A stretch of 45,248 nucleotides of DNA from a virus, in the IMG/VR virus record IMGVR_UViG_3300034190_004525, positions 1 to 45,248 of that record; one strand, given 5' to 3'. The notes under the pieces were generated by a model that was not told where the DNA came from, did not search any database, and worked only from the letters and a program-made list of their open reading frames with translations. The first letter of the stretch is position 1. Each line of letters opens with the position of its first letter. Positions 5,581 to 43,411 of this stretch are shown here, one piece after another. The position numbers and the translations under genes are program-made.

Positions 5581-6069
5581 ATGGCAGAGACACTTTCAGT
5601 CACCGATATGTTGCCGAACAAGTTTGAGCCGAAGCGACAGTTTCGGTGGGTGTTCGCGATCGAGGGTATCGACGCGTTCCTCATGAAGACTGCTGCTCGT
5701 CCAACGATCAACACCGAAGAAGTGACGATTCCTTTCATCAACTCAACTCGCTACATCGCTGGCAAGACAACGTTTGACACGCTCAGCGTTACGCTTCACG
5801 ATCCGATTGCACCTTCCGGTGCTCAGCAGGTTATGGAATGGGTTCGCACCCACTTCGAGTCTGTTTCGGGGCGTGCTGGTTACGCTGACTTCTACAAGCG
5901 CGATTGCCAGATCAAGATGCTTGACCCGGTCGGTACCGTTGTCGAGCTCTGGGATGTCAAGGGTGCCTTCCTTACGAACGCATCTTTCGGCGATCTGAGC
6001 TACGATTCATCCGATCCTTCTGAAATTTCGCTAACGCTGCGGTTTGATAACTGCGTCCTACAGTTCTGA
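5581..6069 (+). CDS. Tail tube protein (T4 gp19-like)
   Basis: 162 residues, against 163 in T4 gp19. It begins MAETLSVTDMLPNKFEPKRQ with the W-V-F-A-I strand typical of tube subunits, contains RPTINTEEVTIPFINSTRYI, and has the HDPIAPSGAQQVMEWVR stretch where T4-type tubes have a conserved helix. The subunit forms stacked hexameric rings that make the DNA conduit inside the sheath and seed on the baseplate. The position directly after the sheath genes supports the call. An AGGAG-like site (ctaggag) 11 bases upstream fits the ATG. Nothing unusual in length or residues. Confidence 0.93.
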   Translation: MAETLSVTDMLPNKFEPKRQFRWVFAIEGIDAFLMKTAARPTINTEEVTIPFINSTRYIAGKTTFDTLSVTLHDPIAPSGAQQVMEWVRTHFESVSGRAGYADFYKRDCQIKMLDPVGTVVELWDVKGAFLTNASFGDLSYDSSDPSEISLTLRFDNCVLQF

Positions 6070-6082
6070 TCCGGAGGTTCTT

Positions 6083-6331
6083 GTGAAAATCACAAGGCGA
6101 CAGCTTAGACAAATCATCAAGGAAGAGTTTCGTAGCCGAGAGGGAAAGAGGCTAACCCGTGCCAGGTACGACGAGCTCACCAGCGAGTTGGACGAATTGT
6201 ACGCAAGGATTGAAGATGCAAAAGGGTTACCCGAGCCAAAGCGCACAGCCTACTTGCAGTTTTACCAGAATGCAATAAACTCGCTTCAAGGGCATCTTGC
6301 CAGAGTTCGTGCCGAAGGCCTAGGAGACTGA
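6083..6331 (+). CDS. Small tagged protein 1 (coiled-coil body)
   Basis: 82 residues starting at GTG, chosen because GGAGG lies five bases upstream and because the product then begins VKITRRQLRQIIKEEF, the tag shared by seven other small proteins here. The ATG at 6044 would place a long, unrelated extension inside the tube gene. The body (EGKRLTRARYDELTSELDEL onward) is a charged, Leu-heptad helix consistent with a coiled coil; no enzyme motif is visible. First member of a five-gene run inserted between the tube gene and the gp26-like gene, where T4-type phages do not normally carry such genes. Function unknown; a packaging tag is my inference. Confidence 0.75.
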   Translation: MKITRRQLRQIIKEEFRSREGKRLTRARYDELTSELDELYARIEDAKGLPEPKRTAYLQFYQNAINSLQGHLARVRAEGLGD

Positions 6332-6332
6332 A

Positions 6333-6869
6333 ATGAAAATCACAAAGAGGCAACTTAGAAGAATCATCAAGGAAGAGAAGGCTCGCCTTGACGAGGCTCG
6401 CTTCTCAAAGGAACTTGGAACTCAGATCGTCGATGAGATGCCACGTCTAATGGGTGACCAGCCAGAGGTCAGGTGGTCGATTGGTGCAGACACACGGTAC
6501 GGAAGGCTTTACATCTATGCAAACGAGGACTTGGATGTGATCGGCTACGGCGCTGGTAAGGACACAATTCGAATGAGCCCGCACCCGAACCACAATGCAG
6601 ACGGCTCTGTCATTGAGATGGTCGGGCCTGGAAGGTTCAAGGTCACAAAGCTCAGAGCAGCACCTGCACCATCTATGATGAAAGAAGCATTTGGTGGCTT
6701 CAGCTACGCCAGAAAGCTGAACCTCATTCGCACCGCGCGAAAGGCCCTCCAGAGCGCGCAGGAGCTGGAGTCAACGAGCGCAATGGGCGAGGACCCAGAT
6801 CTCGACGAGCTTGTCAACATGGTCATTGGTTATGAAGATGCCGTCAAGGCGATGCTAGACTACGAGTGA
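6333..6869 (+). CDS. Small tagged protein 2
   Basis: 178 residues beginning MKITKRQLRRIIKEEKARLDEA, the longest of the tagged proteins. After the tag comes a mixed alpha/beta segment (residues about 45 to 105, including YGRLYIYANEDLDVIGYGAG) and then a helical C-terminal part (about 118 to 178) that starts MMKEAFGGFSYARKLNLI. The C-terminal part looks like a separate module, possibly an old fusion. No catalytic motif is recognised. AGGAG seven bases upstream supports the ATG, one base after the previous stop. Function unknown. Confidence 0.75.
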   Translation: MKITKRQLRRIIKEEKARLDEARFSKELGTQIVDEMPRLMGDQPEVRWSIGADTRYGRLYIYANEDLDVIGYGAGKDTIRMSPHPNHNADGSVIEMVGPGRFKVTKLRAAPAPSMMKEAFGGFSYARKLNLIRTARKALQSAQELESTSAMGEDPDLDELVNMVIGYEDAVKAMLDYE

Positions 6870-6874
6870 GGACA

Positions 6875-7120
6875 ATGAAGATCACAAAGCGCCAACTCAG
6901 AAGAATCATCAAGGAAGCGATGCACGCTCAAAAAGGTGAACCGACCCACGTTACTTTCGTTTTCAACAGCCCGGTTGAACAAAACCTTGCTATGAGAGCC
7001 CTGAACAAGGCAATGCTTCCTGCAGATTTTGGCGTACAGGAGATGATGGTTCACGTTGATGACGTTCAAGATGTTGAGGAAGAGCTACGATACGCCAGGG
7101 TGAGATACGCAAAAAGATGA
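6875..7120 (+). CDS. Small tagged protein 3
   Basis: 81 residues. The ATG at 6875 is preferred over an upstream in-frame GTG at 6866 because it gives MKITKRQLRRIIKEAM, aligning exactly with the other tags, and follows a GAGGA sequence. The body (HVTFVFNSPVEQNLAMRALN, then MMVHVDDVQDVEEELRYARV) suggests a small beta-alpha-beta fold of about 60 residues, resembling a ferredoxin-like domain by eye only. Its stop overlaps the next start by four bases (ATGA), implying translational coupling. Function unknown. Confidence 0.72.
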   Translation: MKITKRQLRRIIKEAMHAQKGEPTHVTFVFNSPVEQNLAMRALNKAMLPADFGVQEMMVHVDDVQDVEEELRYARVRYAKR

Positions 7121-7419
7121 AAATCACAAAGCGCCAACTCAGAAGAATCATCAAGGAAGAGAAAGCTAGACTTCTCAATGAAGTACGCTTTGATCCATTG
7201 GCGTTTGAGGATACCGTCGACGACATTAACCAATTCACTCGCTCGTTTGAAAGGGGTGATGAGGTTCCGCAAAATGAAAAGGCAACAGAGTTTGCTTCCA
7301 AACAATTGTATGATGTGCTATCAAGGCTCAGGTCTGCAATGTATGCCGTTAACGAAGCAGGGGGAGATTTTTTCACTGCTCTTGACATGGCAGTAAAAGA
7401 CGTGAAGGAGTTTGGATAA
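7117..7419 (+). CDS. Small tagged protein 4
   Basis: 100 residues, beginning MKITKRQLRRIIKEEKARLL. The body is predicted helical (TVDDINQFTRSFERGDEVPQ, then ATEFASKQLYDVLSRLRSAM) with an acidic C-terminus. No known domain is recognised. The start overlaps the preceding gene by four bases and its stop shares one base with the next start, so the run is probably translated as a coupled unit. Function unknown. Confidence 0.72.
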   Translation: MKITKRQLRRIIKEEKARLLNEVRFDPLAFEDTVDDINQFTRSFERGDEVPQNEKATEFASKQLYDVLSRLRSAMYAVNEAGGDFFTALDMAVKDVKEFG

Positions 7420-7685
7420 TGAAGATCACGAAGAGACAGCTTAGAAGAATCATTAAGGAAGAGAAGGCTAGACTAGCCGAGGCAAACCCTGACGGAACCG
7501 TGTCCGACAACGAGGATGCAGAGATTTTTGTCTTTTTTGCCGACGTTGAGGAACGCATCGAAGAGCTCGCACAATTCATTGTGATGGATTCCGAGAGAAT
7601 CGGTGGCCGTTTCCGGGGCCCAGGATTACGAAAGCGAGCTTTCCAGAAGGTACTTGAAATCATTCGTGAAGATTACAAGTTCTAA
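7419..7685 (+). CDS. Small tagged protein 5
   Basis: 88 residues, beginning MKITKRQLRRIIKEEKARLAEA. The body starts with an acidic linker and continues as a helix (VEERIEELAQFIVMDSERIG) with a basic Arg/Lys patch (GLRKRAFQKVLEIIREDYK) at the end. AAGGAG nine bases upstream supports the start. Last of the five-gene tagged run; it is followed by a 64-base gap containing a candidate promoter. Function unknown. Confidence 0.72.
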   Translation: MKITKRQLRRIIKEEKARLAEANPDGTVSDNEDAEIFVFFADVEERIEELAQFIVMDSERIGGRFRGPGLRKRAFQKVLEIIREDYKF

Positions 7686-7749: not shown

Positions 7750-8577
7750 ATGAGCAACCGTGGATCAAATCAAGTATTTTCAGGCGGCATCCAGCAGACC
7801 GACGTGATGAAGGATTCTTTCGGCTACGAAGTGCCGGTTGAGTCTGTTCCCCTTCCGTCGCTTGGAAAGGTGTATCCTGATGGAAACCCGCTAAGCGGGC
7901 AGGAAACCGTCGAGATCAGGGCAATGACAGCCAGAGAGGAGGACATCCTAACCTCTCGCGCGCTCATTAAAAAGGGCACTGTCATCACCCATCTAATTCA
8001 GTCGTGCCTCATTGACAAGTCAATCGACGTCAAGAACATGATTTCCGGCGATCGCAACGCACTGATGATCTCGCTGCGAATCACTGGTTACGGCCAAGAG
8101 TACGGCGTTGAGGTTGATTGCCCAGCATGCGGCACTCGTTCAAAGCAGGAGTTTGATCTTGCAGCTCTCGAGGTGAAGACGCTCGACATTGATCCCGTCA
8201 CGCCGGGAACCAACGAGTTCGAGTTTGTTCTTCCCGTAACAAAGAAGAAGGTTCACTTCAAGTTCCTGACCGGTGCGGACGAAGAGGAAATTGCGATCGT
8301 TCAGGAGCGCAAGAAGAAGAGCGGGTTCAAGGCAGACAATCTCATCACAACTCGTCTCATGTACTCCATTGTTTCGATCGACGGAATCACCGACAAGTCG
8401 AAGATCAACGGCTTCATTCGAAACATGCCGGCACGCGATTCGCTGGCCCTGCGTCGATTCATTGATCAGAACGAGCCTGGAATCGATATGAAGTCCTGGA
8501 TGTCCTGCCAGAGTTGCTTCGCGGATTCGGAGGTACGGCTTCCGCTGGGTGCCACGTTTTTTTGGCCTGACGCCTAG
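7750..8577 (+). CDS. gp26-like baseplate/tape-measure chaperone candidate
   Basis: 275 residues. It resembles the T4-type baseplate family that includes gp26: SVPLPSLGKVYP near residue 35, TAREEDILTSRALIKKGTVI, and a C-terminal FIDQNEPGIDMKSWMSCQSC. Two CxxC pairs (CPAC near residue 126 and CQSC near residue 254) could bind one zinc ion. In T4, gp26 acts in central hub assembly; in many contractile tails the gene at this position, just ahead of the tape measure, encodes a tape-measure chaperone. The last 29 bases overlap the next ORF in another frame across a run of seven T, which could allow a frameshifted longer product. GAGAGGT 12 bases upstream supports the start. Confidence 0.75.
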   Translation: MSNRGSNQVFSGGIQQTDVMKDSFGYEVPVESVPLPSLGKVYPDGNPLSGQETVEIRAMTAREEDILTSRALIKKGTVITHLIQSCLIDKSIDVKNMISGDRNALMISLRITGYGQEYGVEVDCPACGTRSKQEFDLAALEVKTLDIDPVTPGTNEFEFVLPVTKKKVHFKFLTGADEEEIAIVQERKKKSGFKADNLITTRLMYSIVSIDGITDKSKINGFIRNMPARDSLALRRFIDQNEPGIDMKSWMSCQSCFADSEVRLPLGATFFWPDA

Positions 8578-20891: not shown

Positions 20892-21083
20892 ATGTCAGAG
20901 CGAAAAATCAGATCTTTTGTTCGTCGCGTTCTTGAATCAGCAGTGATCGATGAGGATGACGAGCAGGAAGGTGAAGAAAAGGATGAAGTCTCCGCCGGCG
21001 GCGTTGCCGGTGTGACGACACCATTGGGAACCGGTCCCAACTATCCTAATCGCAAAAAGCCACGTAGGAAGCGAGGAAGTTAA
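20892..21083 (+). CDS. Small tag-like protein with basic tail
   Basis: 63 residues. It begins MSERKIRSFVRRVLESAVID, a short basic amphipathic helix that resembles the MKITKRQLRRIIKEE tag loosely, then an acidic linker (DEDDEQEGEEKDEVSAGG), a Gly/Pro-rich stretch (VTTPLGTGPNYP) and a very basic end (NRKKPRRKRGS). The layout (helix, acidic linker, basic tail) looks like a small structural or DNA-associated protein. Its stop shares a base with the start of a true tagged gene. Function unknown. Confidence 0.6.
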   Translation: MSERKIRSFVRRVLESAVIDEDDEQEGEEKDEVSAGGVAGVTTPLGTGPNYPNRKKPRRKRGS

Positions 21084-21313
21084 TGAAGATCACAAAGAGA
21101 CAGCTGAAGAGAATCGTGCTTGAGGAAAGGAGGAAGCTTCAGGAAAATTACGTTTCCCCTGCCGCCATACACGATGCAATGAGAGACATAGAGAAAGCTC
21201 TTCTAATGCTTCTGGAAGAGGGGGCAACCAGGGAGTTTCTTGTAGACATTCTGCAAGAGATCATGGATGACGTGGCCAACGACAGAATGTCCAGAATCAT
21301 CGATGGAGATTAA
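21083..21313 (+). CDS. Small tagged protein 6
   Basis: 76 residues, beginning MKITKRQLKRIVLEERRKLQ, a diverged form of the tag in which IIKEE is replaced by IVLEE. The body is an acidic helix (AMRDIEKALLMLLEEGATRE, then LVDILQEIMDDVANDR). First of the second tagged cluster, 14 kb from the first. No domain recognised. Confidence 0.68.
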   Translation: MKITKRQLKRIVLEERRKLQENYVSPAAIHDAMRDIEKALLMLLEEGATREFLVDILQEIMDDVANDRMSRIIDGD

Positions 21314-21314
21314 A

Positions 21315-21545
21315 ATGAAAATCACGAAGAAACAGCTTAGAAGAATCATCAAGGAATATGCAGGACCTCCAGATCGCCCGGTCGATCCAGAAGACATGAA
21401 GAGACTGCGCGAACTTGCTAACATGATCGAGGACGCGGTTTCAACGGCAGAGAAGCTTGGACCAACTGGCAACGTTTACATGTTCGTTTCAGATCTCACC
21501 GAAGCTCTTCGAAACTTCGGCATCAACCCTTATTCCATGAACTAA
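21315..21545 (+). CDS. Small tagged protein 7
   Basis: 76 residues from ATG 21315, giving MKITKKQLRRIIKEYAGPP. An in-frame start 48 bases upstream lies inside the previous gene and would misalign the tag. The body (DPEDMKRLRELANMIEDAVS, then FVSDLTEALRNFGINPYSM) is a helical, acidic domain with no recognised family. Function unknown. Confidence 0.68.
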   Translation: MKITKKQLRRIIKEYAGPPDRPVDPEDMKRLRELANMIEDAVSTAEKLGPTGNVYMFVSDLTEALRNFGINPYSMN

Positions 21546-21547
21546 AG

Positions 21548-21814
21548 ATGAAAATTACAAAGCGACAACTCAGAAGAATTATCAAGGAAGAGAAGGCTCG
21601 CCTAGATGAAGCGCCTAGCACTACTGCGGTTGATCGTCTCAACAGCGCGCTGGATAGTTACGTCTCCTCGTATTTGAGCAGGGCTCCAGGCCCCATCATC
21701 GACGCGTTGGATTCTTTGAGGGACGAAGTTGAAGGATACATCGAGTTCCGTACGACCAGGGGAATGTCACCGACGCTTCGCTTCCGGAGCAGCGACGAGG
21801 ATTCTGAACCCTAG
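21548..21814 (+). CDS. Small tagged protein 8
   Basis: 88 residues, beginning MKITKRQLRRIIKEEKARLDEA, the same 22 residues as tagged protein 2 although its codons differ at several positions (aaaatt for aaaatc, cgacaactc for aggcaactt). The body (VDRLNSALDSYVSSYLSRAP, then IDALDSLRDEVEGYIEF) is helical and ends acidic. Last gene before the SSB leader. Function unknown. Confidence 0.68.
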   Translation: MKITKRQLRRIIKEEKARLDEAPSTTAVDRLNSALDSYVSSYLSRAPGPIIDALDSLRDEVEGYIEFRTTRGMSPTLRFRSSDEDSEP

Positions 21815-36829: not shown

Positions 36830-38122
36830 ATGTTCGATACTGAATTTTCGATCAGGCTAACTGAAAAGGCCTACAGGATTGCTTACTTCGATGCAGCAAA
36901 CGTGATCTCCGAAGGAAAAATCTCGATCCTTGTAGAACGAGTTACTGATGACGAGGTCGAGAAGCTCAAGGATCAGCTAAAGTCGACAAAGCAAGCATTG
37001 GACGACCTAAGGCAGAAAGTCCCAGAACAAATGACGAACGTTACCGCCTATCTCGACAAGGTTGATGCTGAGTTCAAAGACGTGAATCCAGCAAAGATTA
37101 GGCTTGTTGGTAACAAGAAAAGGCTAGCAAAGATTATCGGTAGCGCTGCTTCGGCACAGCGGAAGATGCAAACCATTACGCAGAGCGTTACTCGTGCTTT
37201 TGAGGATCTAAAGTCTGCGATTGCATCAGACGAATCAGCTAAGAAATCACTGAAAGACAATGCTGAAGACGTTAGGGAATTGTCAATCGAAGAGTTTATC
37301 AAAAAGCATGGAGGTGTTGGATCTCTTGATGATGCAACATTCCGCAAGGGAATTTCCAATGCTTACACTCCGCCACCAAAGGCGAAGGGGTTTTTTGCAA
37401 AAATTGTTAGAGCTTTGGGATTTGAAGCTCTTCCACCATCAGATGCAAAATTTACAGAAGACCTGATGAAGATTCCTCTTGAGAAGATCATTGCTTGGTC
37501 TTCTACGCCGGCAATGACAAGGGTATCATCGCCTGCTTCAGCAGAACAAATTAGGGATTCGGTATCCGCAGCAACAAGCGACGTTGCAGATCTCACGGGT
37601 CAGGATCAAGGCCAGGATCAACCTGGCGAAGATGCCGAACAGCCTGATGACGAAGCTGGAGATGACGCTCCTGACGAAGAAGCCGAAGAGGCTATCGAAG
37701 ATCTCGCTGACGAGATGGCAGACGAGGCTGAAGCTGAAGCTGTTGCTGATGCCGCCGAAGAGGCTGCTGACGAGGACGAGGACGAAGGTCTTCCCACGCT
37801 TTCCAGTATCCTGTTTCAGCCTGTCGACTCAGACGACCGGTCGAAGGGTATGAAGATGAGGGATGACTTGACAGATCCTCAGGAAAATGAAATCGGAAAC
37901 AGGCTAAGAATCGCCCTACAAAACATTGCAGATACTAGCCTAAAGTCAAGCTACGATGGATTGGTCGATAAGCCTAACACTGCAAATAGAAGAAGCTTCA
38001 TCAGCAATATTCAGAATTTGAAGAGTGCTTTGGACAGAGTGAAGCTTGAAAGCAAATCTGAAAATGGCGAACTAATTTTAGAGCAGTGGCAAAAACTTGC
38101 GGGGATTAAAGAAGATGAATAA
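36830..38122 (+). CDS. Acidic coiled-coil protein, probable structural
   Basis: 430 residues. N-terminal half helical with coiled-coil character (DDEVEKLKDQLKSTKQALDD), then SIEEFIKKHGGVGSLDDATF, a short hydrophobic region (GFFAKIVRALGFEALPP), a very acidic low-complexity stretch (roughly residues 255-320, mostly Asp, Glu and Ala), and a helical C-terminus. An I-x-E site (ISE) lies near residue 28. No family recognised. The composition resembles head core or scaffold proteins of T4-type phages, but this is inference. TTGAGGA upstream supports the start. Confidence 0.65.
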   Translation: MFDTEFSIRLTEKAYRIAYFDAANVISEGKISILVERVTDDEVEKLKDQLKSTKQALDDLRQKVPEQMTNVTAYLDKVDAEFKDVNPAKIRLVGNKKRLAKIIGSAASAQRKMQTITQSVTRAFEDLKSAIASDESAKKSLKDNAEDVRELSIEEFIKKHGGVGSLDDATFRKGISNAYTPPPKAKGFFAKIVRALGFEALPPSDAKFTEDLMKIPLEKIIAWSSTPAMTRVSSPASAEQIRDSVSAATSDVADLTGQDQGQDQPGEDAEQPDDEAGDDAPDEEAEEAIEDLADEMADEAEAEAVADAAEEAADEDEDEGLPTLSSILFQPVDSDDRSKGMKMRDDLTDPQENEIGNRLRIALQNIADTSLKSSYDGLVDKPNTANRRSFISNIQNLKSALDRVKLESKSENGELILEQWQKLAGIKEDE

Positions 38123-38399
38123 AGCAATTTTAGAATCCATGCGGCGTGTGATGCTTCGCAGAATCGTTGAAAATCTTGACGAGGCTGACGTGGTTGACAA
38201 TCACGGAAACGTTGTAATTGGAAAGGATCTTAAGGTTCGACACGTTCCGTCTCAGTTTGAGTACACCGTTGCGGAGGTGATTCGTGGGCCTGACGGAGTT
38301 CAAATTGTTCTCCGATCACCAGAGTCTTCAAGATTCCAGCCTGGAGCTGATCTCGTAGTTTCTGAAAAAGAGTTTGAAAAAGATTATGAGGTGAAGTGA
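38115..38399 (+). CDS. Small protein with tag-like N-terminus
   Basis: 94 residues from ATG 38115, overlapping the previous stop. Begins MNKAILESMRRVMLRRIVEN, an Arg-rich amphipathic helix ending in IVE, loosely like the MKITKRQLRRIIKEE tag. The body (VVDNHGNVVIGKDLKVRHVP, then YTVAEVIRGPDGVQIVLRSP) looks like a small beta-sheet domain. No family recognised; overlaps the next start by one base. Confidence 0.62.
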   Translation: MNKAILESMRRVMLRRIVENLDEADVVDNHGNVVIGKDLKVRHVPSQFEYTVAEVIRGPDGVQIVLRSPESSRFQPGADLVVSEKEFEKDYEVK

Positions 38400-39097
38400 T
38401 GAAGCTCGAGGACATCATCAATGTAAGAGAGCTGCGTAATGCCGTCAGGAAAAGTTCTCACGTTGCAACAATCAACGAGGCCTACGTAGTTCAGTCTCCG
38501 CAGACGAAGGTTGAGACCGAATCGCTGAGCGAGAAGTCAAAGAAGATACTGCAGAGCAAGTTGGACCTGTATGCTTCCGAGTTGAACCACGTCAGCGCTC
38601 AGCTCGATTCTGCAACCCGCGATGTTTCTATGCCAGATGCATCATCATACAGTGCTCTGAAGGCCCAGGAAGGCCGCCTGCTACAGCTCAGTTTTTTCCT
38701 AGGTTTGCACTCAACGAATATTGGGGATCCTCAGTCAAGCCTAGCCATGGACACCCTGACGTACATGAGGCTAGAGAGGGACTGGGGAACGTTTGATTCT
38801 TGGCAAAAGGACTTCATTGCATGCGCAATGACAGCTTGCAACTTTGTCGTTACTGCATACAACTATGATCTCAAGAGGTACATGAATCTCATTGTGGATA
38901 GTATGCATGCCCTTCCTCCGAATGTCACGCCAGTCATAAGTCTTGCGGTAATGCCTGACCTGTACGTCAGAGATTATCTCGATGACAGAAAGGCTTATGT
39001 TTTTGCAATGATTCGAGAGTTGAATTGGGATAAGATTGACGCTAGATTCAAGAGGGCCGAGAGAGCTGCCGCAGCTTACGAAGGAAGGGAACAATGA
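38399..39097 (+). CDS. Superoxide dismutase-fold protein lacking metal ligands
   Basis: 232 residues from ATG 38399. The C-terminal 110 residues follow Fe/Mn superoxide dismutase (LERDWGTFDSWQKDFIACAM for ERDFGSxDNFKxEF, and a spacing-perfect PVISLAVMPDLYVRDY followed by ELNWDKIDARF). The metal ligands are mostly lost: the Asp and His of LDVWEH are A183 and D187, and the first His has no match; H104 of the second site remains. So a catalytic SOD is unlikely, and a structural role of the fold is inferred. The N-terminus (MKLEDIINVRELRNAVRKSS) has a tag-like helix and an INE site at 25-27. Confidence 0.6.
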   Translation: MKLEDIINVRELRNAVRKSSHVATINEAYVVQSPQTKVETESLSEKSKKILQSKLDLYASELNHVSAQLDSATRDVSMPDASSYSALKAQEGRLLQLSFFLGLHSTNIGDPQSSLAMDTLTYMRLERDWGTFDSWQKDFIACAMTACNFVVTAYNYDLKRYMNLIVDSMHALPPNVTPVISLAVMPDLYVRDYLDDRKAYVFAMIRELNWDKIDARFKRAERAAAAYEGREQ

Positions 39098-39711
39098 GTT
39101 TGAATTTTGATAAAGCAAGAAGAGCACTTCTGAATGAAGACATTTCTACCGTTGGCGCTGTTCCTTCTGAAGAAATTGCAATGGATTCCATCGAAGCTGG
39201 CCGTGAGTCTAGAGAGTTTGCAGAAGCGGACATGATTCGCGAGCAGGAGGAAGACGAGGAAGAGGAGGAAGATCAGGACGACGAAGAGGACGAGGTCGAG
39301 GAAGTATCTCCGGATGACAAGGAGTCCTTGGAGAAATCTGTCGATGATGCCATCGAAGGAATCTTGGTCGACTACGAAGCTAACGCCAGAAAATCTGCAG
39401 AGCTACAGACTGAATCGAGGTATTCACTTCGTCGCTATTTGCTAACTGAGGCTGATGAAAAGCTTGACGTCGACATGTTCGCATCGGATGTTGCTAGACT
39501 CGTCAAAAACTACGACACTCTTCTCGACATGGAAGCCATCATTGTCAACAAGGCTATACAGTTCCTGGAAAAGAATTATGATTCAGATATAGCGGAAGAG
39601 TTCGTGGAATTGTTAGACATTCGCCATGACATCTCTATCGGTGAAGATCCTGACGAGCTAGAGCAGCCAATTGCTGTCGGTGCTTCAGGCGGAGGCGGAG
39701 GCGCTGTTTGA
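39094..39711 (+). CDS. Very acidic protein, unknown function
   Basis: 205 residues, beginning MSLNFDKARRALLNEDIS with an LNE site, then a strongly acidic block (EEDEEEEEDQDDEEDEVEE near residues 52-70), a helical middle (EIANARKS-type region, SRYSLRRYLLTEADEKLDVD) and a Gly-rich end (VGASGGGGGAV). Acidic runs of this kind occur in head core or DNA-mimic proteins, but no family is recognised. ATGA-type overlap with the SOD-like gene. Confidence 0.6.
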   Translation: MSLNFDKARRALLNEDISTVGAVPSEEIAMDSIEAGRESREFAEADMIREQEEDEEEEEDQDDEEDEVEEVSPDDKESLEKSVDDAIEGILVDYEANARKSAELQTESRYSLRRYLLTEADEKLDVDMFASDVARLVKNYDTLLDMEAIIVNKAIQFLEKNYDSDIAEEFVELLDIRHDISIGEDPDELEQPIAVGASGGGGGAV

Positions 39712-41069: not shown

Positions 41070-42350
41070 ATGTCAAAGAAAAATTTGGATCGCCTTGTCG
41101 AATCAGTGATTTTTGAGAATTATCTGAACGAAGACATGGGCAGTCGAGCCGTAGCACCAGGAACTCTGCATGCAGATCCTGTGCTTGGCAATACCGGATA
41201 CGGTAAGTTGGTTGTCAAGAAAAATCCTGAAACAACGGTTGGAGAGGAGCTGCCCCTAGCACCGTCTTCGGTAATGAGTGCACAGTTGGCCGACGAGCTT
41301 CCTCCGGTTGATGACCCAGACTACAAGCCTAAGACCGCTTCTGACTTCGGTTTGGCCATGCATGCAATAGTTAACGACCTACCAGAAGAGCAAATGGAGA
41401 AACTTTACCGGTCGATACGAAGAACAGCCGAGAAGATGCTCGGTAGGATTAACGAGCAAGCCGGTGATGACTATTACATGGGCCTCACAGACGAAGAGCT
41501 GTTCGATGGAATGACCGACGAGGAAAAGGAAGAGCTTCAAGATCTGGCCGACAGAATGAGAGCTTCTGGAGAAAAGGTTCCATCTAGCTGGGATACAATT
41601 CTCACTTCCGACGACCCCATCAACAAGATCAAAGGAAGCTCTGACGAAAAGCCTCCAGGCGAGATTGTCGCACCGGTTGAGGTCACAAAAGACGGCATGA
41701 CACTGGAAGATCTTGCGGATGTTATGGGGATTGGCGTTTCAGGAGCCAGACAATCGATTGAGAAGCTTATCCGCAGAACGGGAACTCTTGAGAGAATTCT
41801 ATCGCCGAAAGATCTAAAGTCGCTTGAAATATTTGCTACGATTCAGTTCATCAAAGGTCTCACGCCATTTGTTGACGAGGACGACATTGATGAGCTGAAG
41901 CTCAACAGAGACATTACCAGAGGCCTAGACTCTTACAGGTTTTTCTTCGTTAACTCATTCATTCTCCCTGTGTACAATAAGCTGTACAGAACAGCATCCA
42001 AGGACATAGAGGCTCGCCTTGTGCGAAGCGGTTTCCCAAAGCGGTCTGCTCTTACGATCAAGAACATCATGTTCGGAGAGTCCATGATGACCCCGGAGAA
42101 ACTGAGAAACAAGATTCAAAAGGACATTGCGGCAGAGGACTCCAGCACCGATGTCGATACTTTGGTAGATCGTCTCAAGGGTTTCTATCCGACACTCAAA
42201 TCAATCGCTAGCTTGGACGGAGCAGACGTTGCCGGTATGGCTCGAGACAGATGGGACAAGCTATCAGATAAAAGAAAATCTCAAGAAGTTGAGAAGGCAC
42301 TAGATGCAACACAGGCGTTCCAAGATGAATTTGAAGGCAAGGATGCTTAG
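41070..42350 (+). CDS. Hypothetical protein with tag-like N-terminus
   Basis: 426 residues, GAGG upstream. Begins MSKKNLDRLVESVIFENYLN with IFE and LNE sites, then a proline-rich acidic linker (APSSVMSAQLADELPPVDDP) and helical body (GMTLEDLADVMGIGVSGARQ and DDIDELKLNRDITRGLDSYR). The region near residues 210-240 (TLEDLADVMGIGVSGARQSI) has the look of a helix-turn-helix, but no family is recognised. A structural or internal-head role is my inference only. Confidence 0.62.
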   Translation: MSKKNLDRLVESVIFENYLNEDMGSRAVAPGTLHADPVLGNTGYGKLVVKKNPETTVGEELPLAPSSVMSAQLADELPPVDDPDYKPKTASDFGLAMHAIVNDLPEEQMEKLYRSIRRTAEKMLGRINEQAGDDYYMGLTDEELFDGMTDEEKEELQDLADRMRASGEKVPSSWDTILTSDDPINKIKGSSDEKPPGEIVAPVEVTKDGMTLEDLADVMGIGVSGARQSIEKLIRRTGTLERILSPKDLKSLEIFATIQFIKGLTPFVDEDDIDELKLNRDITRGLDSYRFFFVNSFILPVYNKLYRTASKDIEARLVRSGFPKRSALTIKNIMFGESMMTPEKLRNKIQKDIAAEDSSTDVDTLVDRLKGFYPTLKSIASLDGADVAGMARDRWDKLSDKRKSQEVEKALDATQAFQDEFEGKDA

Positions 42351-42743: not shown

Positions 42744-42905
42744 ATGAAGAAGTTTGAATTTGACAAGTTTATGGACGACATTGAGAAGCGCGAAAAGCCT
42801 GTCAACGAAATCAAGAAGGCGCCAGAGACACCACAGGAATATCTTCACCGCCGTTACCGAGAAAACTACCGTCATAGAATGAAGGTAAAGGTTGATAAGA
42901 AATGA
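42744..42905 (+). CDS. Very small basic/acidic protein
   Basis: 53 residues, MKKFEFDKFMDDIEKREKPV at the start and HRRYRENYRHRMKVKVDKK at the basic end. GGGTGA nine bases before the ATG is a weak ribosome binding site; the stop overlaps the next start as ATGA, which supports it as real. No family recognised; its basic end would suit nucleic-acid contact. Confidence 0.6.
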   Translation: MKKFEFDKFMDDIEKREKPVNEIKKAPETPQEYLHRRYRENYRHRMKVKVDKK

Positions 42906-43411
42906 GTACTAGAAAGGCAAAGCTTCTAAGAAGACTGATCTCCGAAGCATCTGACGAGAGAATGATGCAAAAGAGATCCTCGAGGGATCAAGAACCGTTC
43001 AAGCTTCGAAGAAAGAAGACGACATCTGAAATGCAAGAGCAGGATAACGAGGAAGAAGACTCTGGCATTGAAACGCCGACATACGCAAAGGTCATTGACA
43101 AGCTCAACCTCATGCGAAGCGGTAAGTCTGTTAGAGACAAAGAAATTTCTTCCCAGGTCAAGAAGTACTTCAACTCACTGAGTGGGCCAGAGCGTACCGC
43201 TCTGTTTGCGTACCTAGATGCTCTAACGGAAATCATGTCCGGTGGCGAATCAGCGTCGAAGGTCGAAGATCCATCAGATGATCCATATTTCGTAACTACC
43301 ACTCGCAAGGGCGGCGGTGCAAAGAAGGAGAAGAAGCGGAAGCCTTCCGGAAAAAAGAAGTCTCCTGAAGTCGAGAAGGCCAAGGGCGCAGCGATCGTCG
43401 TAGGACAGTAA
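42902..43411 (+). CDS. Lys-rich protein with tag-like N-terminus
   Basis: 169 residues, starting MSTRKAKLLRRLISEASDER, a basic helix ending in an ISE site and the best loose match to the MKITKRQLRRIIKEE tag outside the two clusters. Then an acidic linker (SEMQEQDNEEEDSG), a helical middle (SSQVKKYFNSLSGPERTALF) and a Lys-rich end (AKKEKKRKPSGKKKSPEVEK). The Lys-rich end suggests DNA contact, as in T4 internal proteins, but this is inference. Coupled to the previous gene by ATGA overlap. Confidence 0.65.
   Translation: MSTRKAKLLRRLISEASDERMMQKRSSRDQEPFKLRRKKTTSEMQEQDNEEEDSGIETPTYAKVIDKLNLMRSGKSVRDKEISSQVKKYFNSLSGPERTALFAYLDALTEIMSGGESASKVEDPSDDPYFVTTTRKGGGAKKEKKRKPSGKKKSPEVEKAKGAAIVVGQ

Follow-up and report, generated by a model that had tools for sequence, protein, structure and literature searches.

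The window, by which we mean the whole stretch of virus DNA analysed here (45,248 nucleotides), encodes eight small proteins with unrelated bodies behind one shared N-terminal tag, and we propose that this tag is likely to be a capsid-targeting propeptide cut by a gp21-type protease. The tag sits at the start codon and has two alternative ends. In related phages it co-occurs with a gp21/gp23 head module, is found on core-region genes and marks variable cargo loci. The function that we assign to it is inferred from sequence alone, without proteomics or enzyme data.

The window, a virus record of 45 kb, holds sheath, tube and baseplate genes, followed by replication genes; it lacks a head module, and no Rfam match was found in it. 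The tag is 14-22 residues long and occurs in a short form, IIKE↓A/S, and a long form, IIKEEKxxLLxE↓Q/A/S/G, the arrow marking the predicted cut. Five consecutive tagged ORFs lie on the + strand at 6083-7685, between a tail tube gene (5581-6069; phrog_4542, 2.9e-33) and a baseplate hub gene (7750-8577; phrog_150, 4.3e-21), and three more on the same strand at 21083-21814 bring the total to eight. The first ORF (6083..6331, 82 aa, GTG start) begins VKITRRQLRQIIKEE, its tag codons spanning 6083-6124. The other four of this cluster all begin MKITKRQLRRIIKE: 6333..6869 (178 aa, long form, predicted cut LDE↓A after 6395), 6875..7120 (81 aa, short form, predicted cut IKE↓A after 6916), 7117..7419 (100 aa, long form, predicted cut LNE↓V after 7182) and 7419..7685 (88 aa, long form, predicted cut LAE↓A after 7481). 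The second cluster comprises 21083..21313 (76 aa, predicted cut LQE↓N after 21145), 21315..21545 (76 aa, short form, IKE↓Y after 21356) and 21548..21814 (88 aa, long form, predicted cut LDE↓A after 21610). A sequence-only reading of the window had reported the five consecutive ORFs with otherwise unrelated bodies. Both claims held, the best non-self BLASTP match among the eight bodies having E = 0.05, and the cluster of three had been missed.

The tag ends were analysed in 248 non-redundant proteins and in an independent, likewise non-redundant repeat set of 219 proteins. In the short form, defined by a residue other than E at position 15, this residue is A or S in 59 of 85 proteins (28/45 in the repeat set) against a background of 15%, and a second L/I-x-E is present in 19/85 (9/45 in the repeat set), near its background of 15%. 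In the long form, with E at position 15, a second [LIVM]-x-E is found at residues 17-26 in 137 of 163 proteins (123/174 in the repeat set); this site is mostly LLxE, and the next residue is often Q, A, S or G. Information content in the 248-protein set falls to near zero past about residue 23. Because I/L and E at the first site were demanded by the search patterns, the invariance of this site is in part a product of the search; no such selection acted on the residue following it, on the second site or on the core gene described below. The specificity of gp21 is L/I-X-E, and the T4 CTS measures 10-19 residues (PMC9026906). Both tag ends have the features expected of a gp21 site, although this is an inference and L/I-x-E is a short and common motif. 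For the majority of the window proteins, a cut at the second site (LDE↓A, LNE↓V, LAE↓A), which follows IIKE by 7-8 residues, is a better prediction than one at IIKE↓E; this corrects the earlier assignment of IIKE as the cut site. The ORF at 6083-6331 counts against our main reading. It has only IIKE↓E, lacks a clear second site and is the weakest of the eight, and its homologs keep a tag.

Comparison of homologous bodies revealed that the tag precedes them in nearly all homologs found, and that the x-E junction is kept while the neighbouring residues vary, as in the homologs of the 7419-7685 protein. Two bodies lie directly behind the tag in one phage and behind an internal L/I/M-x-E↓A in another. 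The 6333-6869 protein carries such an internal site, MKE↓AFGGFSY, and its second half sits directly behind the tag in another phage. The join in the polyprotein-like cases (window 6333-6869; L380 / L013) reads M-K-E↓A or I-S-E↓A.

The tag segment is basic, with a median net charge of about +5, and predicted to be helical. A structure model of the 7419-7685 protein shows a helix over residues 5-22 ending near the predicted cut, then a loop and a body helix; pLDDT in the tag region is 58-68, and the model is therefore only indicative. The claim of a basic amphipathic helix thus held in part, since the hydrophobic moment was reached by 6% of shuffles, which is not significant, and amphipathicity was dropped as an argument. 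A basic helical segment, together with the location of the first window cluster among tail genes, might suggest that the tag docks to another partner (tail, membrane, phage compartment or chaperone) and that the E-rich end is merely the end of a helix. We consider this very unlikely, as it leaves unexplained the two alternative gp21-type ends, the preferred next residue and the switch between the ends. In addition, the same motif is borne by the capsid protein, in which L-R/K-E↓A/S/Q is kept in 17/17 capsid proteins of tag-bearing phages. This capsid L-R/K-E site lies at a place comparable to that of the cut in T4 gp23.

The exact degenerate tag pattern matched 60 stretches of IMG/VR DNA, on contigs of up to 293 kb. 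Tag-profile matches above 12 bits were counted at start codons, with reversed sequences as controls, in the window, in five records read at full length (G007, G009, G012, G017 and G008) and then in G013 as a sixth. The profile found 8 tagged genes in the window, 41 in G007, 39 in G012, 27 in G017 and 24 in G008 (24-41 in each of these four 200-285 kb relatives), 12 in G009, 28 in the fragment G013 and 0 in every reversed-sequence control. The tag is placed at a start codon in 103 cases versus 4 elsewhere (103/107), and in 262 versus 5 in the second set (262/267). Among 50,697 GenBank phage records the tag was seen only weakly, in one uncultured phage, and no T4-like isolate was matched by the tag queries. 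A 305 kb tag-bearing contig, NHDW01000006.1 (L282, L284; G046), is binned as Methylococcaceae bacterium TMED69, a bin that also contains gp21 and gp23, both on one contig; it is probably a large phage of the tag-bearing group that was binned into a bacterial genome.

The protease gp21 (Peptidase_S77, PF03420) was detected in 29 of 52 tag-bearing records, 15/30 in the first set and 14/22 in the second, and the gp23 capsid protein occurs in exactly the same 29 records. The other 23 are without gp21, gp23 and the large terminase (three positive controls have terminase), and therefore hold no head module. According to the sequence-only reading, the tag in genomes without a prohead protease would refute head targeting; the idea passed, as gp21 is present in 29/29 of the records with gp23. 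The profile matches of gp21 in relatives range in E from 1e-24 to 1e-37, and the catalytic motifs DHP[DE]SS and LGISSRG are intact in 15/15. For scale, a tblastn search with gp21 matches 2508 of the 50,697 GenBank phages. One tagged record of 134.7 kb without gp21 (G013) was considered as a counter-example and rejected, because it starts at the baseplate hub gene, lacks gp23 and terminase, and is thus a fragment. An HK97-type protease (Peptidase_S78, PF04586) as an alternative cutter was also rejected, with a profile match in 0/30 records. The nearest long relative of the window, G009, is collinear with it over most of its length, mostly at 80-84% DNA identity, and carries gp21 about 11 kb upstream of the point matching the window start. 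As the window has no head module, gp21 in its own phage is only inferred from such relatives. The co-occurrence of tag and gp21 is also confounded by common descent, because all records with a head module are T4-type.

Two further features of these head modules were seen. Ribosomal protein S21-like genes (PF01165) at L085:14096-14317 (G007) and L171:9939-10157 (G014; below cut-off) form part of the head module: they are located between the gp21 and scaffold genes, on the same strand as the head genes. In G001 and G002 (L164, L165) the gp23-like major capsid gene is present in two tandem, slightly different copies.

Within the head module, the tag is also carried by a gene of 135-153 codons located just after gp21, either directly or one gene on, which starts MAKxSRxxLKxLVKECLVEILxEG. 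Against the tag profile this core gene scores 13-27 bits in the cases not already classed as tagged by the regular pattern, as compared with a maximum of 5.8 for shuffles (n=7735 N termini), and the K, L, K, E, L and E positions of the tag are invariant in 13 aligned genomes. No Pfam match of the core gene to any named core protein was found. The gene next to it bears a more diverged version of the tag, LTPSLLKKMVLQERKRMNE↓T. The gp22-like scaffold protein starts with an I-A-E↓A-like site (EAIAE↓A-like) and has a net charge of -28 to -63, so that an acidic scaffold and a basic tag make a plausible, unproven mode of binding.

These core-region genes raise the possibility that the tagged proteins are not delivered cargo but components of the scaffold core, which would be cut to pieces and lost as the head matures, as T4 gp67 and gp22 are. 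The tag on genes by gp21 and the internal L/I/M-x-E sites in some tagged proteins speak for this reading. Against it, 12-41 different and variable proteins per genome, encoded in loci away from the head module, are unlike a core, and some tagged proteins resemble enzymes (NUDIX, Zeta_toxin-like kinase, PAP2). We therefore regard the core-component explanation as unlikely. RiPP-type leader peptides were rejected as well, since the bodies are whole proteins of 50-500 residues.

We propose instead that the tag acts as a capsid-targeting propeptide, whose basic, predicted helical N terminus (MKITKRQLRRIIKE...) would bind the scaffold core during prohead building, an idea that fits both the strong acidity of the gp22-like scaffold and the tag on the gene that follows gp21. 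The tag would in this way bring many unrelated small proteins into the head. A gp21-type serine protease would then cut after the glutamate of L/I-x-E, at IIKE↓A/S in the short form or LLxE↓Q/A/S/G in the long form. The bodies would be freed inside the head and presumably enter the host with the DNA, like the T4 internal proteins. Core binding, cleavage, packaging, injection and cargo function are all inferred. The earlier proposal of T4-like head targeting with a gp21-type protease is hence supported by sequence evidence only, with no experiment as yet to demonstrate cleavage, packaging or injection.

The internal proteins of T4, which share a common signal, are diverse and inhibit host restriction enzymes (PMC12373910, PMC3012670). 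IPI, IPII and IPIII with their CTS resemble the present system in having a short shared N-terminal sequence, divergent bodies, an L/I-x-E end, gp21 and polymorphic loci (PMC9026906, PMC3012670, PMC12373910). However, the new tag is unrelated to the T4 CTS at search level, has a long form with a second site, is also present on a core-region gene next to gp21, and marks 12-41 genes per record as compared with three IPs in T4; the cargo, too, differs from that of T4. Similar to the T4 core and scaffold proteins gp22, gp67 and gp68, core-region genes lie by gp21 and L/I-x-E sites occur in the gp22-like N terminus, whereas the core gene of 135-153 codons here shares the cargo tag. In the giant phages SPN3US and phiKZ, the propeptides of many head proteins are removed after glutamate, with several sites per propeptide (PMC9026906, PMC10052503); unlike those of the tag-bearing phages, their proteases have diverged from gp21 (PMC9026906), and to our knowledge no one tag is common to their propeptides. 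When the literature was searched for this tag or for a comparable system already described, only T4-type targeting and the giant-phage propeptides came up. As far as can be judged from sequence, the tag works like the T4 CTS with gp21; descent from the T4 tag is not shown, because no sequence homology was found.

The cargo bodies themselves are largely unassigned. Comparison of 102 tagged proteins with Pfam (E <= 0.01) yielded only 7 families with one member each, PAP2 among them, and nothing clear was found for the bodies in PHROGs. Tagged or tag-like N termini in G013 (L291:7294-8343, L291:5822-7294) belong to a Zeta_toxin-like kinase (8.9e-12) and a NUDIX protein (1.7e-16). One G017 protein with an ADP-ribosyltransferase-like look (YYHGTP) was unconfirmed by Pfam and dropped.

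Collinearity between the window and G009 breaks at only a few places, the tag loci among them. The insertion between the tail tube and gp26-like genes, which had been called unusual, is therefore better seen as a variable cargo locus. Tandem tags, and a DNA identity at the tags that reaches 84-96% between different cassettes, could indicate that the tag is a DNA-level recombination element for cassette swapping, with the protein sequence incidental. This explanation is all but excluded. Among the eight window tags, differing codon pairs comprise 107 synonymous versus 42 residue-changing differences, confirming the synonymous variation noted earlier, though the two classes are about equal in the tags of wider relatives; in addition, the two-form end and the tag on the core gene are protein-level features. 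Recombination through a tag that serves as a propeptide remains a possible route of cargo swapping.

A bolder reading, for which we see as much reason to doubt as to believe, is that the tag is a head-loading address, distinct in sequence from that of T4, which serves as a plug-in platform. Small cargo proteins, numbering in the tens and interchangeable, some of them cut-apart polyproteins, would be exchanged at dedicated loci behind a single cleavable tag. They would be delivered together with the genome, and the injected set would be several times that of T4. If the propeptide reading is true, the tag and the L/I-x-E rule pick out hundreds of unannotated proteins as head cargo, likely acting in the first minutes of infection. 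As the T4 counterparts block host restriction enzymes, the tagged bodies would be candidate counter-defence or takeover proteins of uncultured phages. It would also mean that one kind of core and protease can work with tags unrelated in sequence, and the recognition of targeting peptides by the core would become testable.

A second group of window proteins, at 38-43.4 kb on the + strand, has diverged N termini that also end in L/I-x-E; the evidence is weaker and the comparison was made by eye. The candidate processed protein at 38115..38399 lacks the canonical tag and its N terminus ends LDE↓A, with L-x-E↓A kept in orthologs in G009, G008 and G007. The superoxide dismutase-like protein at 38399..39097 (PF02777, Fe/Mn superoxide dismutase C-terminal domain, 9.8e-8) has an N-terminal extension ending INE↓A; its apparent orthologs have MNE, IKE, VNE or LAE before AYV and keep the E↓AYV junction. 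The N terminus of the acidic protein at 39094..39711 ends LNE↓D, and its apparent orthologs in G008 and G007 have a tag-like N terminus (LLVE↓Q, ILSE↓Q). A 426 aa protein at 41070..42350 also ends its N terminus in LNE↓D (INE↓D in G013). In a 169 aa protein at 42902..43411 the N terminus reads MSTRKAKLLRRLISE↓A and matches the tag profile weakly, its score of -4.8 bits only slightly exceeding the 99% level of the shuffles. Several unrelated bodies in G017 (L128-L129, record of about 253-263 kb) share another N-terminal family, MKNLRQYIRKIL(S/I)E, whose end is L/I-x-E too.
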